From: Acidobacteriota bacterium
GTDB lineage: Bacteria; Acidobacteriota; Holophagae; Holophagales; Holophagaceae
Direction: 5' to 3'
Assembly: GCA_014189895.1 (NCBI GenBank)
Contig: BJFQ01000007.1
Span: 1-60,388, forward strand
Length of the DNA: 60,388 nucleotides
Below are positions 2,455-16,918 of the stretch, piece by piece. Position numbers and translations under genes: made by a program. Under the pieces are notes generated by a model. The model was not told the origin of the DNA. It did not search any database and worked only from the letters and a program-made list of their open reading frames with translations. Position 1 is the first letter of the stretch. Every line of letters starts with the position of its first letter.

Positions 2455-3044
2455 AGGGTCCCTTCTTCGCGGTAACTCTTTGTCCAAAGACGCAAACCAG
2501 ACAAGCAGAGTCCTAAGAAGATCATATAAAGAGTCGCTGTAATATACAAATCCCTAAAAATACTAGTCAAGGCCGACAAGATATTGAAGAGAATCCAGAT
2601 CCACCAATTCTCAAGTTTTTTACGGGCCATGAGGACCTGGGCCACCAACCCTAAAATCAAAATTAAGCTATCCAGGATCGGAAGACGGCCGTCCGTCCAA
2701 TTACGCAGACTAGTACTGACACCCCACCAGGTGAACGTGACGATTAGGATTCCCACACCCCATTGCGATGGTCTTAAGCGGGTAACAGGAACCCTAGGAC
2801 GATCTGAAAGGGGTCGAGACCAATACCACCAACCATAAATACTGACGAGAAAGAAAATAAGTTGGAGGATGGATTGACCATAAAGTTTAGACGTAAAAAA
2901 AACTGACCCGAGAACCAAATTGTTGACCATCCCCACGGGCCAATTCCAAATATTTTCTCGGGTGATCAGCCAAACGCAAAGCGCTCCCGATATCCAGCTG
3001 TATATCTCAAGCTGATGTTCCGTTAGAAGATCAATCATGTGCAT
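2451..3044 (-). CDS. pnuC: Nicotinamide riboside transporter PnuC
   Basis: Inner-membrane facilitator for nicotinamide riboside; trapping occurs by phosphorylation through the kinase encoded next door. The protein is 197 residues with about seven hydrophobic segments. It contains the characteristic NIWNWPVGMVNN region and the following KLYGQSILQLIFF and YGWWYW helices typical of PnuC. Its start (ATG 3044 or the ATG two codons later) lies inside the end of the preceding gene, and its stop overlaps the nadR start by four bases, so the pair is tightly coupled. Identification rests on these motifs and the nadR neighbour. Confidence 0.93.
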   Translation of the reverse strand: MHMIDLLTEHQLEIYSWISGALCVWLITRENIWNWPVGMVNNLVLGSVFFTSKLYGQSILQLIFFLVSIYGWWYWSRPLSDRPRVPVTRLRPSQWGVGILIVTFTWWGVSTSLRNWTDGRLPILDSLILILGLVAQVLMARKKLENWWIWILFNILSALTSIFRDLYITATLYMIFLGLCLSGLRLWTKSYREEGTL

Positions 3045-7232: not shown

Positions 7233-7339
7233 GGGCTCATCCTCCTGGATCGAGTGGGCAGATCTTTAACTCTATATAAATTGCTTTCACTTTTATACGC
7301 CATCCCTCCCAACGGGATGATTCATAAGATTGATTTGTA

Positions 7340-7365
7340 TTTTGAATAGTGTACACTATTCAAAA
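7340..7365. promoter_or_regulatory. Perfect 26-bp palindrome, probable operator of umuDC
   Basis: Half-site TTTTGAATAGTGT at 7340-7352 is followed directly by its exact reverse complement at 7353-7365, with no spacer. It ends nine bases before the chosen umuD start. A possible -35 TTGATT (7330-7335) and weak -10 TACACT (7352-7357, 16-base spacing) would place it on top of the promoter, as expected for a repressor site. SOS genes are normally controlled by LexA at such palindromes. The sequence does not match the E. coli (CTGT-N8-ACAG) or Gram-positive (GAAC-N4-GTTC) box, so the binding protein is uncertain. Confidence 0.75.
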
Positions 7366-7374
7366 AGAGGTTTT

Positions 7375-7983
7375 ATGGTTATTAAATCAAAGCAAGGAGG
7401 TTCTCGGGCTGGAGCGGGTCGAAAGCCGGGCCAAGGCCCCTACGGTGAGCAAACTCAAGCCCTCCGGGTTCCGGAAAGCCAACTCGGCACTCTTAAAAAA
7501 TACTTAGCTCAGTATCGTCGTTCTTCGGGAGTCTCTCGACTCAAACGGGGCGAAGTAATCACCCTCGAACTTCATGGGATCCGGCGCGATACCCGTCCCC
7601 GTACCATTCCCCTGATTCCTTCTAGTGTGCCGGCCGGATTTCCTTCCCCTGCTGATGATTATTTTCATGGATCGATTGATTTAAATGAACATCTGATTCA
7701 CCGACGTGAATCGACGTTTATTTTAAGAGTCTCGGGTTGGTCCATGCTGCAAGCAGGCATCCATGACGGCGATGAACTCATCGTCGACCGATCGTTGGAA
7801 CCCCAGAATGGTCATGTTGTTATTGCGGTCGTCGATAATGAGTTGACCTGTAAGCGTCTTCTAAAATCAGGATCGGTGATTCGTCTCGTTTCCGAAAACC
7901 CAGATTATCCCGAGATCATTGTAGATAAAGCCCAAGAAATTACTATTTGGGGCGTCGTGACGCGCGTCTTGCATAAGGTATGA
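7375..7983 (+). CDS. umuD: Extended UmuD-like S24 self-cleaving mutagenesis protein
   Basis: Subunit of the error-prone DNA polymerase V type complex; UmuD is activated by RecA-stimulated self-cleavage. Start chosen at ATG 7375, preceded by AAGAGG; a frame opening at 7330 would run through the operator. The 202-residue protein has a normal UmuD core: cleavage-site context [11 protein letters not shown] (predicted cut Ala87-Gly88), catalytic Ser123 in SGWSM and Lys160 in LTCKRL. The core is preceded by 87 residues rather than the about 24 of E. coli UmuD. This extension carries a Gly/Arg/Lys-rich motif [12 protein letters not shown] and LRVPES. That makes it LexA-sized and could provide DNA binding. 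It overlaps umuC by four bases. Confidence 0.92.
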
Positions 7984-9302
7984 ACGCTCACCATCTCATC
8001 GCTTTGATCGATGTAAATAACATGTATGTTTCCTGCGAGCGGGTCTTCCGTCCTGATCTGGCTCGAACTCCCATGGTCGTGCTTAGCAATAACGATGGTT
8101 GTGTCATTTCGCGCAGTTCAGAAGTTAAAGCCCTAGGGGTTCCCATGGGTGTCCCTTGGTTTAAGATTCGAGACCTCGCGAAAGCCCATCGTATCTTGGC
8201 CCTCAGTTCGAACTATGATCTTTACGGTGATATGAGTGATCGATTTATCACTGCCTTACGGAATTTTAGTCCCACTCAAGAGGTCTACTCTATTGATGAA
8301 TGTTTTCTAGCAGTAGGCGATGTGCCCGAGTCCTCCATCGTTGCCTTAGGTCGCGATATTCGGCAAACGATTCAACAATGGATTGGTCTCCCGGTGTGTG
8401 TGGGTATTGGGCCAACCAAAACCCTCGCCAAACTTGCCAATCATGCCGCCAAGAAACAGGAGTCTCGGCAAGGCGTCTGTTTTCTAAAATCTAGTGATGA
8501 CGCTATTACTCCCATTGCACAAGCCTTTCCTGTTCGTGATGTATGGGGCGTGGGGGATCGCTACAGTGAGCGTCTAACGAGCCTGGGTCTTCAGACCATC
8601 GAAGATCTTCGACAATGGTCGCCCGACTTAGCGCGCCAGCACTTTGGGGTCAATCTAGCCCGTACGATTTGGGAATTAAGAGGAGCAGCTTGTTTTAAAT
8701 TCCAAGAGACGCCTGAAGATAAAAAACAAATCACCTCGTCACGATCCTTTGGCTGTGCTGTGACCCGTTTGGAACATTTAATGGAAGCTGTAACGCTTCA
8801 TGTCACCCGAGGATCCGAAAAATTACGCTCGCAAGGATCGGTGGCTCGAGCTATTCAGGTTTTTATTATGACGAATCGACATCGAACCCAAGATCTGCAA
8901 TATTATCCAGGCGTGACCATCAGCCTAGATTCACCTTCGGACGATACGCGCCGCCTGATGCAAGCAGCCGCTGAAGGCTTGCGTCGAATCTATCGGCCGG
9001 GGTTTCGCTATATCAAAGCAGGCATTAATTTGGTCGACTTAACGCGAAAGGATCTTCAACCCACACCCTTATGGGGGATGCCGCGAACGGGAGAGAGCTT
9101 AATCTCGGTCATGGATGCTTTAAATGATCGCTTTGGATCGGGAACAGTTGGACTTGGAACCATGGGGCTCTCACAAGAACGAAATTGGTCTATGAAACGA
9201 GAAAATAAAACGCCAAGTTATACGACGGAATGGGACGAACTCAGGTGTGTCTTTGCGACGCGACATAAAAAGCGAATCCCTGGACTTTGGGATCACAATT
9301 AA
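7980..9302 (+). CDS. umuC: Y-family DNA polymerase V catalytic subunit UmuC
   Basis: Translesion DNA polymerase, working with cleaved UmuD and RecA to copy damaged template at the cost of mutations. The 440-residue length is normal. Metal ligands are visible as Asp11 in [12 protein letters not shown] and Asp106-Glu107 in YSIDECFL. The palm contains [12 protein letters not shown] and the thumb helix-hairpin-helix segment includes [13 protein letters not shown]. The UmuC-specific C-terminal domain is intact, with QPTPLW as a possible beta-clamp contact. ATGA overlap with umuD shows one operon, presumably induced on DNA damage through the palindrome upstream. Confidence 0.95.
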
Positions 9303-13965: not shown

Positions 13966-16918
13966 AGGTTTCTCCTGAATCATCACTGTCTTCGTCGTCC
14001 TCGCTGAGCGCGTCAAAAAGATCCACCGGGCGTCCACAAAGTGCCGAAAAATCGCAATATTCACACGCATCGCTCGGGGTGACCCGATAACGACCCGATT
14101 GAGCTTCGGTGACAAGATGAGCAATCACTCTTTTAAGACGCTCCTGATGTTCGAGACCTCCCTCATCCGCTCCGAAGAAAGAAGAGACGACCTGTTCCTT
14201 AAAGTCCTTGAGTGGAACGAGCGCCGCACTGGTTTTCAAGGACTCCTGGTGTTGAATAATGAGTTGATATACAAAACCCTGCATGAATGTTCCCCAGGGA
14301 CCTTCAGAATCTAATTTCACTTTCGACCGAAGACTACTCATCGCTGAGGATTTAAAGTCTAAGACACGATAAAAAGATTGACTCGGATCGGAACACACCA
14401 TTTTTTCTAAACGATCGAGTTGACCCACAAGCCAAAAAGTTTTTCCGTCAATCTCGATCGGAATGGCTTCAGATTTCACTTCGGATTGAACCTCTTGTCG
14501 GAGCCAAGTTACATCGGTCGGAAGACTAAATCGAGCCATTTCCTCTTTCGTAGGAATATTCAATCCTCCTCCGAGATCCCAGACGACAAAACGAGCTAAT
14601 TCATAGAGTCGTTCCCGAATAAAGAAATCCATATTAGATTTTTGAATGCGATTGAACCCATCCTTATCCATCCATGCGGATCCCCGCTTTGTCCACAGCG
14701 TTTCGAAGTGCTCACGCATCGAAAGCTCCGACGTGGGGTCAAGACCCTTGCCTCGGAGAAAAGCGACTTGTGCAGCGGTCCAATCCTCGGCCGTTGGATG
14801 GTCTTCATGGAGATTGCTTAGGAGACGATGGAGGTACGTACCTCCCTTTAGGGTTAGACTGTTGCTTTCTTTGAGAGATTTAAGTTGGAGCATTTCCTCG
14901 CTAAAAGAACGGAAAGCACAGCCGGCGAGTTTTTGAAGTTGGGTGGGCGAGATGGGATCACGTGCACTCAGGCCTTTGACCCAAGAGGATCCTTCGATAT
15001 GATCGGGCGAAGCACTCTCGCTGCTGAAGAATTGCGTCTGGCGTTGTTCCGTCAAAGGGTGTTGGGTATGCCCTGACCATCGATGGGCTAAATATGAACG
15101 AGACACAGCCTGCCAGTCTCCGGCGCCTTCTAGGCTTCTCCAAAAAACACTTGATGATTGTTTTTGTTCAGCAGAATTCCGGCCCGAGTACAACGCCAGA
15201 AGATGACGCCGGGTTAAGGCTAGCACCTTATTAAAGCCAAATGCATCTCGTTGATAAGCCCGAGGCATCGTTTCTTGCTCTTCGGTACGTGGCAACCAAA
15301 AGGTTTGAACCAAATAGAGCGGGTTTTGGGTATCTCGATAGTGTTTTCGCAAGGCTTGATTGATTAAAAATTTACGATCCCAGTCTAGAAAGGGATTGGG
15401 CGCCGCGTTCGACGGCCACACGCCATCTTCGAGATCTAAGATCAGCGTGACCTCACTGCCCTGCCAATGACGAAGGATGGCCGACGGAGTGATGAGCTGA
15501 ATCCCTTTCTTGCCTTGCACAATGGAGTCTGAAAGAGCCGTCTCTAAGAAAAGCTTGAGCGCACTCAGCATGTATTCAAAAGAGACTGGCTCAGTCAAAT
15601 CATGCCAGGCTTCATCTAACAAACCCTGAGTGGTGAAATAGCGACCTCGATGGTGAATGAGATCTAGCGCTAAGATCAATTCGCGAATGCGCTGAGACCA
15701 AGTCGAACTATCATCGGGATGATCTGTTCCTAGGGGCATCGGCGAACTATTTTTAAAATCGATGAGTCTCATCCATAGCGTCTTTAAGTCGGCATCGTGA
15801 GTCAGAAGGATTTTTTCAAGGAAAGACTCATTAAGATCCGCCATCTCGTCATGATCTTGGAGCTTGCGGATGAGGTTATGAAGGTGCTTTTGTCGATCCA
15901 CCTCGGTCGTTTCATTCGGTTCCAGCGTGGAGCTCAATCCATGGGCGACATGGATGGGATCATTTTCTGCAAGTCCTTCCAACATCGTCAACAGAGCTGA
16001 CCATTCGGGAGCATAAATTAAAGGGCGTCCTTTGACCGATCGAAGCGTGATTCCTTCAGCATTGAGCATCGACTCAAGGAGCGGAGCGACTTCCGTGGGA
16101 TTAGCGTGGACCACGGTGATTGCTGACGTGGGGACTCGATCTTCACTGGGCTCGTGAAGATGAACCCAGTAAACAATTTCATCGACGGCGGCACGAAGCG
16201 ACGCAAAAGGACTGGCTACTTTCCCGCGTTGCAAATGAAGCCGGCCCTCTGCTTCGAGATTGAGCGGTCCTTCAAAAAGATTGGCGAGGTTCTTTCCCCA
16301 GGGATTACTACCCCATGACGAAGGTGTTTCAATCTCGACATGATTCGCATCCGCCAAATAGCCCTCAATGGGATCCAGAATATCCTTAATAAGATAAGGT
16401 TGTTGACGCGCTTCTTTGTCTTTACCCAAAGCCAACTCAAACTTAAATTTAAATTGGGTCAACTGACTGACCGCTTGAAGATAGATAGGTTGCATCTGAT
16501 CGAGCCCTAAGACAATGGCTCCATCCACCTCTGGGTCTCGGTCGGTCCATACGGTACTGTCGTCGATAGGTTTTTGGAAGCGGGTCCAAAGTTCATCAGG
16601 GATCTCAACGTAGGACGATTGATGCACTGCTTGGAGGTAACTTTCTAAATGACGAATTAAGGCTGCTAAGGAATGTGGATCGCTGGCCTCTCCCATAGTT
16701 AGATCAAGTGATTTCAAGAACAAGGGAAAGAGACCTTGCTCCATGAGTTCTCGACACGCACGAGCGCGTGCTTGGAGATGCGCACTTGATAGCAGCGGTC
16801 GACCATCCGTCTTTGACCACTGATGTTCAACTTTAAGGTGCAACATCATGGCCACAGAGCCCGGAATGGCACCTTGGCGGGTGGGGACGACCACGCCTTC
16901 AAATAGTTGAAAACTCAT
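13952..16918 (-). CDS. addB: AddB-type subunit with iron-sulfur nuclease domain
   Basis: Partner of the helicase-nuclease downstream. The 988-residue protein has a degenerate helicase-like middle (VTLILDLEDGVWPSNAAPNPF is typical of AddB/RecC-like proteins). Its C-terminal PD-(D/E)XK nuclease shows VLDFKSS. The four-cysteine iron-sulfur staple of AddB is present: one Cys in QKLAGCAFRSF and three at the end, Cys952, Cys955 and Cys961 in CEYCDFSALC. No Walker A motif is visible at the N terminus, so ATP hydrolysis is probably confined to AddA. The last 20 residues are strongly acidic. It is the first gene of the pair. Confidence 0.88.
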   Translation of the reverse strand: MSFQLFEGVVVPTRQGAIPGSVAMMLHLKVEHQWSKTDGRPLLSSAHLQARARACRELMEQGLFPLFLKSLDLTMGEASDPHSLAALIRHLESYLQAVHQSSYVEIPDELWTRFQKPIDDSTVWTDRDPEVDGAIVLGLDQMQPIYLQAVSQLTQFKFKFELALGKDKEARQQPYLIKDILDPIEGYLADANHVEIETPSSWGSNPWGKNLANLFEGPLNLEAEGRLHLQRGKVASPFASLRAAVDEIVYWVHLHEPSEDRVPTSAITVVHANPTEVAPLLESMLNAEGITLRSVKGRPLIYAPEWSALLTMLEGLAENDPIHVAHGLSSTLEPNETTEVDRQKHLHNLIRKLQDHDEMADLNESFLEKILLTHDADLKTLWMRLIDFKNSSPMPLGTDHPDDSSTWSQRIRELILALDLIHHRGRYFTTQGLLDEAWHDLTEPVSFEYMLSALKLFLETALSDSIVQGKKGIQLITPSAILRHWQGSEVTLILDLEDGVWPSNAAPNPFLDWDRKFLINQALRKHYRDTQNPLYLVQTFWLPRTEEQETMPRAYQRDAFGFNKVLALTRRHLLALYSGRNSAEQKQSSSVFWRSLEGAGDWQAVSRSYLAHRWSGHTQHPLTEQRQTQFFSSESASPDHIEGSSWVKGLSARDPISPTQLQKLAGCAFRSFSEEMLQLKSLKESNSLTLKGGTYLHRLLSNLHEDHPTAEDWTAAQVAFLRGKGLDPTSELSMREHFETLWTKRGSAWMDKDGFNRIQKSNMDFFIRERLYELARFVVWDLGGGLNIPTKEEMARFSLPTDVTWLRQEVQSEVKSEAIPIEIDGKTFWLVGQLDRLEKMVCSDPSQSFYRVLDFKSSAMSSLRSKVKLDSEGPWGTFMQGFVYQLIIQHQESLKTSAALVPLKDFKEQVVSSFFGADEGGLEHQERLKRVIAHLVTEAQSGRYRVTPSDACEYCDFSALCGRPVDLFDALSEDDEDSDDSGETYETS

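Follow-up and report, generated by a model that had tools for sequence, protein, structure and literature searches.

The umuDC genes of a Holophagaceae acidobacterium probably form a UmuDAb-type Pol V operon that is self-contained and represses itself, with a predicted 22-bp operator, a full-length umuC, and a host that encodes LexA. Homology of the protein and of its predicted operator to those of UmuDAb, their co-occurrence, and the conservation of residues for the predicted cleavage and dimerization are seen at the level of sequence. The source genome has 1,165,493 bases in 42 contigs and is 97.1% complete; by "the window," we mean the whole 60,388-base stretch of DNA that we analyzed.

The mode of action that we infer (for binding, repression, cleavage, Pol V activity, and the location of the promoter alike) would be as follows. 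In an undamaged cell, dimers of the extended UmuD would hold a palindrome ahead of the gene with their N-terminal regions and would block the umuDC promoter. After DNA damage, RecA filaments would stimulate the self-cleavage of UmuD at A87-G88, and this would separate the DNA-binding part from the dimerizing part and open the promoter. The same cleavage would yield UmuD' (residues 88–202), which would join UmuC as Pol V, so that a single protein would be sensor, repressor, and polymerase subunit. The initial annotation of this DNA had proposed that the N-terminal extension acts on the palindrome (autorepression), and this proposal is supported by the homology to UmuDAb, by the likeness of the operators, and by the co-occurrence of extension and operator.

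The umuDC operon and its palindrome

The features of the operon in the window are as follows.

7340–7365, unstranded: perfect palindrome TTTTGAATAGTGTACACTATTCAAAA, the predicted operator (repeat search and conservation within the genus)
7342–7363, + strand: predicted core operator, TTGA-N5-GTAC-N5-TCAA (by comparison with TTGA-N4-GTWAC-N4-TCAA of UmuDAb)
7366–7370, + strand: AGAGG, likely ribosome-binding site (read from the sequence)
7375–7983, + strand: umuD, 202 amino acids, extended UmuD with Peptidase_S24 (PF00717, E = 5e-33; NF007621, 157 bits)
7375–7524, + strand: N-terminal module, about residues 1–50, common to UmuDAb (GGxRxGAGRK..YGExTxxxRVPxS and a predicted helix)
7633–7638, + strand: predicted self-cleavage site A87-G88 (aligned with A83-G84 of UmuDAb)
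7741–7743, + strand: predicted catalytic Ser123 (invariant in the alignment; aligns with S119 of UmuDAb)
7852–7854, + strand: predicted catalytic Lys160 (invariant in the alignment; aligns with K156 of UmuDAb)
7980–9302, + strand: umuC, 440 amino acids, Y-family polymerase with DUF4113 (start overlaps the umuD stop; NF002955)

UmuD passes NF007621, the model for the autoproteolytic subunit of Pol V (157 bits versus a cut-off of 110), and is below the cut-off of the lexA model TIGR00498 (89 versus 111 bits). As described in the initial annotation, 87 residues precede the predicted cut at A87-G88 in this 202-residue protein; in E. coli UmuD, 24 residues precede the cleavage site. The umuC gene adjoins umuD and is full length, with its start at 7980 overlapping the umuD stop at 7983. 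Its product matches IMS, IMS_C, and DUF4113 from Pfam and scores 397 bits against NF002955, which is under the cut-off of 431. The list of open reading frames also offers a TTG start for umuD at 7330, which would place the palindrome within the gene; we preferred the ATG at 7375 because a likely ribosome-binding site precedes it and the relatives share it.

The arms of the palindrome (7340–7352 and 7353–7365) are 13 nt each, are 100% complementary, and have a spacer of 0, and nine bases (7366–7374, AGAGGTTTT) lie between the palindrome and the ATG at 7375. Both the sequence and the repeat search therefore confirm the report of a spacerless, perfect 26-bp palindrome nine bases before the start of umuD. 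No other perfect palindrome in the 60,388-base window is as long. In 200 block shuffles of the window, the maximum arm was 11, and an arm of 13 was reached in none. The runner-up without a spacer, which is also the second-longest perfect palindrome of the window, has 16 bp (GGAGGTACGTACCTCC, 14830–14845).

A nearly identical umuD is found in two metagenome-assembled genomes of the same genus, HTM.8 (Holophagaceae) and F1-20-MAGs096 ("Acidobacteria bacterium"; F1-20 below). The window and F1-20 agree at all 26 positions of the palindrome, and HTM.8 agrees with each of them at 25 of 26. The rest of the umuD intergenic DNA is 69% (window and F1-20), 77% (window and HTM.8), or 62% (F1-20 and HTM.8) identical. 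The palindrome is conserved far better within the genus than the surrounding DNA is.

A scan of 7233–7420 for sigma-70 promoters found none, and a terminator scan found no terminator. By eye, a promoter TTGATT-16-TACACT can be drawn across the window palindrome, but we do not claim it because HTM.8 lacks the first hexamer.

LexA of the host

In a competing explanation, the palindrome would serve the host's LexA in repressing umuDC, and the long N-terminus of UmuD would do something else. The umuDC genes are ordinarily a LexA target, and the genome does encode a LexA (212 amino acids, on contig C10) that has its own N-terminal domain and is the only other S24 protein in the genome. However, a scan of the source genome for further copies of the umuD site, as the initial annotation had suggested, points away from LexA. 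With up to three mismatches allowed, the full palindrome occurs once. The 12-letter form of the site, with at most one mismatch, occurs at umuD and at one other place (versus three for the reversed control), and the sole full match is at umuD; the GTNAC form is at chance level (5 versus 6). The palindrome is thus a single-copy site and is at neither lexA nor recA.

A different element is found at these two genes. AAARCGAAAAAAA has exactly two exact occurrences in the source genome, about 40 bp before recA (C1:7182–7194) and before lexA (C10:13321–13333). It is present in 24 of 24 Holophagaceae recA upstreams and, as CGAAAAAA near TTGAC, in 26 of the 26 lexA upstreams that could be read among 30 loci of the family; the umuD intergenic DNA (7233–7374) lacks it. 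We consider it a candidate LexA box. The element has opposite orientations relative to recA and lexA and no obvious palindrome, and a spaced-dyad search of the lexA upstreams found no palindrome common to most of them. If one mismatch is allowed, there are 10 occurrences in the genome versus 7 and 8 for the controls, or little excess. Use of the umuD palindrome by LexA, which had been named beforehand as the outcome that would count against autorepression, was not seen, given the single copy of the site and the different element at lexA and recA. We think repression by LexA very unlikely.

Relationship of the extension to UmuDAb

Returning to autorepression by UmuD itself, the basic N-terminal motif (residues 8–19) is not peculiar to this protein: a broader set of proteins has it, among them the characterized UmuDAb. 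The pattern GGxRxGAGRK...E.T...R.P.S is common to 15 aligned proteins from Holophagaceae, Sulfuricella, Synechococcus, Legionella, and Acinetobacter, and in these 15 extended sequences G8, G9, R11, G15, R16, E25, T27, R31, and P33 are invariant. UmuDs encoded on plasmids and prophages of Acinetobacter, Legionella, Sulfuricella, and Synechococcus carry the basic motif as well. Among 28 other Acidobacteriota loci that we fetched (L006–L033), none has GGxRxGAGR.

For UmuDAb, we used an annotated UmuD of 203 residues from a record named Acinetobacter phage MD-2021a (L044). We take it to be UmuDAb because its A83-G84, S119, G124, and K156 sit at the positions published for UmuDAb. By BLASTP, residues 6–202 of the window UmuD align with this protein, N-terminus included, and 82 of 205 positions (40%) are identical. 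The likeness to UmuDAb that had been suggested for the window UmuD is thus homology and not just analogy, as the extension can be aligned along its length. A87-G88, S123, K160, N104, and G128 of the window UmuD align with A83-G84, S119, K156, N100, and G124 of UmuDAb, for which roles in cleavage, catalysis, and dimerization are described in PMC11332147 and PMC4807011. The N-terminal domain of UmuDAb is required for repression (PMC4807011, PMC11332147). Changes at its E24, K40, N100, and G124 impair binding or dimerization: E24K and K40P/N41P bind more weakly, and G124D nearly abolishes binding (PMC11332147). The window UmuD has E25, K41, K42, N104, and G128 in place of E24, K40, N41, N100, and G124.

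For the fold of this module in UmuDAb, a helix-turn-helix has been proposed in print. A Pfam search of the 15 extended N-termini gave no match in any of them, and a comparison of the N-terminal profile with the N-terminal domains of host LexAs (hhalign) gave a probability of 0.3%, or no similarity. The initial annotation had remarked that the motif does not look like a known LexA helix-turn-helix. An AlphaFold model (from 23 sequences) has a single helix at residues 34–49, low confidence before the helix, and a mean pLDDT of 67 overall; given the low confidence at the N-terminus, the model supports neither the published helix-turn-helix nor another fold. We also considered a ribbon-helix-helix (the strand TQALRVP plus the helix). 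The umuD N-terminus (7384–7530; first 82 residues) resembles phrog_21736 (E = 1e-4) and phrog_8312 (E = 3e-4), which are PHROG families with no assigned function, so the module may also be present in other phage proteins.

The window UmuD and UmuDAb share the N-terminal motif, the S24 domain, the AG cut, the Ser-Lys pair, and a length of about 200 residues, and the DNA upstream of each gene holds TTGA/TCAA arms around a GT..AC core. They differ in that a complete umuC follows in the window operon; in that the window host has LexA (the absence of LexA is a trait of the genus Acinetobacter and not of the protein); and in that the regulon of the window UmuD is apparently one operon, as we found no wider regulon. 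The corepressor of UmuDAb is DdrR. The small gene beside umuDAb in the phage record, which we presume to be DdrR, had no match in the source genome in a search that was run without a positive control.

The window UmuD is like E. coli UmuD (Pol V) in having an S24 domain, a predicted self-cleavage, and an operon with umuC. E. coli UmuD differs in its short N-terminal part and in being under LexA repression. The window UmuD is like LexA in having a predicted N-terminal DNA-binding part and a predicted RecA-stimulated self-cleavage, and it is unlike LexA in its N-terminal profile, in its single-operon scope, and in its UmuD-type C-terminal domain.

Another possibility is that this UmuD acts solely as a regulator, as UmuDAb is reported to do, and that UmuC makes no use of the cleaved product. 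UmuDAb of A. baylyi failed to complement an E. coli umuD mutant (PMC4807011), and because of this, the double role that we propose for the window UmuD stays putative. Against this possibility, the umuC that overlaps the stop of umuD is full length, and UmuD scores above the cut-off of its Pol V family; also, a Y-family polymerase gene lies 3' of umuD in most (not all) of the extended relatives that we viewed. We give the regulatory-only explanation a slim chance.

Operator-like sites and the spread of extended UmuDs

The operator of UmuDAb was defined by gel shift as TTGA-N4-GTWAC-N4-TCAA; the GTnAC core matters most, and a single arm suffices (PMC11332147). The window site, TTGA-N5-GTAC-N5-TCAA, has both arms and the GT..AC core. 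It spans 22 bp with GTAC rather than 21 bp with GTWAC, and it is one base wider per side. The window palindrome therefore resembles the UmuDAb operator and is a predicted operator.

The initial annotation had also proposed a search of other genomes for the extended UmuD together with its site. We scored upstream DNA by the twelve specified letters, allowing spacers of 4–6 and a core gap of 0–1; this looser form was picked after we had viewed the window and some relatives. We collected 47 distinct extended UmuDs, scored the 43 that have at least 80 bp of upstream DNA, and dropped the other 4. The score was 11 or 12 for 39 of the 43 and was 12 for 31, although most of the 43 are close Acinetobacter relatives, so these counts share ancestry. 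Among block-shuffled upstreams (n = 860), 0.1% scored at least 11 and none scored 12. By comparison, 3 of 16 UmuDs without the motif scored 12 (one of the 16, L135, has a variant of the motif). Extension and operator thus co-occur in several lineages. In a tree of the C-terminal (cleaved-off) part with 68 rows, which is poorly resolved, the extension needs eight changes, and there are just two usable independent pairs. The statistical link between operator and extension therefore rests on few lineages, and we make no claim about how often the extension was gained or lost.

The three motif-less UmuDs that scored 12 are two Acinetobacter-like loci and L094. UmuDAb acts in trans in Acinetobacter (PMC3978071), so an operator at the two Acinetobacter-like loci is expected. 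Six further motif-less UmuDs scored 7, 7, 8, 8, 9, and 12, and the 12 is from an Acinetobacter plasmid. L094, which falls outside the Acinetobacter case, is an IMG/VR contig that encodes a short UmuD without the extension and has a full TTGA-N4-GTAC-N4-TCAA before the start (2917–2936).

The extended UmuDs that scored below 11 are L037, L048, L053, and L136. If six bases of the gene are added, then L048 rises to 11 and L037 to 10; their upstream scores are low because the right arm extends into the start codon.

An operator-like site is found in Holophagaceae, Sulfuricella, Synechococcus, Legionella, Acinetobacter, and one IMG/VR contig. As a control for each lineage, we counted how many of 300 dinucleotide shuffles scored as high as the real sequence. 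None did for the window, F1-20, HTM.8, Sulfuricella, L. israelensis, L057, UmuDAb, or the A. baumannii plasmid. The count was 1 for L. lytica, 2 for L. sainthelensi, 4 for F. dumoffii, and 1 and 12 for Synechococcus. Three sites were no better than shuffles: L. adelaidensis (276), L. antarctica (124), and L129 (109, scored one codon off the ATG). The L. antarctica site is symmetric at 9 of 11 positions. L136 and L129 have no good site (9 of 12 letters each), and the variant L135 matches by the core only. L129 (near 2950–3000) is an extended UmuD with AAGNPC rather than AGFPSP in the cut region, and it has no clear operator. L135 is the plasmid umuD of L. adelaidensis, and it has its own perfect 26-bp palindrome (TTATAATTAGTGTACACTAATTATAA, at about 1412–1440) that has the window core AGTGTACACT and lies almost as far from the start as the window palindrome does. 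In this case, the TTGA/TCAA arms are gone, and the protein lacks the GG of the motif.

The palindrome might instead work in RNA, where a hairpin in the leader would mask the ribosome-binding site or terminate transcription; a perfect inverted repeat of 26 nt just ahead of that site could fold in the messenger. We think this very unlikely: the terminator scan was negative, and four relatives (Sulfuricella, L. lytica, F. dumoffii, and L. sainthelensi; L036, L043, L045, and L046) keep 11 of the 12 specified letters with symmetry near the start at no more than 7 of 11 positions, which favors recognition of letters in DNA.

The UmuDAb type has been attributed to Moraxellaceae (PMC8565304), as a solution of Acinetobacter and Moraxellaceae, which lack LexA (PMC8565304, PMC11332147). 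PMC8565304 reports that a DNA-binding domain was not detected in UmuDs from Bacteroidetes. In the open-access papers that we searched, we found no description of a UmuDAb-like extended UmuD outside Acinetobacter. The comparisons above suggest that the UmuDAb-like system is spread more widely than published for Acinetobacter. On balance, we lean toward a broader reading: UmuDAb would be one branch of a mobile group of Pol V operons that repress themselves and that are spread over at least three phyla (Acidobacteriota, Pseudomonadota, and Cyanobacteriota), the N-terminal module would be an undescribed kind of DNA-binding domain, and UmuDAb would have taken over a regulon after the loss of LexA. 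Such an operon would bring along its own operator and a single protein that senses damage, represses, and forms part of the polymerase, so it could work whatever the LexA of a new host recognizes. If the same module and operator are at work in a LexA-bearing bacterium and on plasmids, then mutagenesis could travel self-regulated, outside the SOS circuit of the host. The many natural pairs of operator and N-terminus would also provide a means to work out how UmuDAb contacts DNA.

Within Acidobacteriota, umuD is present in all three genomes of the genus that we examined, and a search of genome contigs with the window UmuD returned two same-genus records only. We also drew 297 Acidobacteriota genomes, and 258 of them match UmuD at E ≤ 0.001. 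Among the matches listed, those in two same-genus genomes are full length, and the others do not begin before residue 12 and have identities no higher than 46%. The genomes that we drew from other Holophagaceae genera have 1.3–5.2 Mb, with some of them incomplete. The source genome has just 1.17 Mb at 97% completeness, yet it keeps lexA, recA, and umuDC; the other sampled genera of the family mostly have 2–5 Mb.
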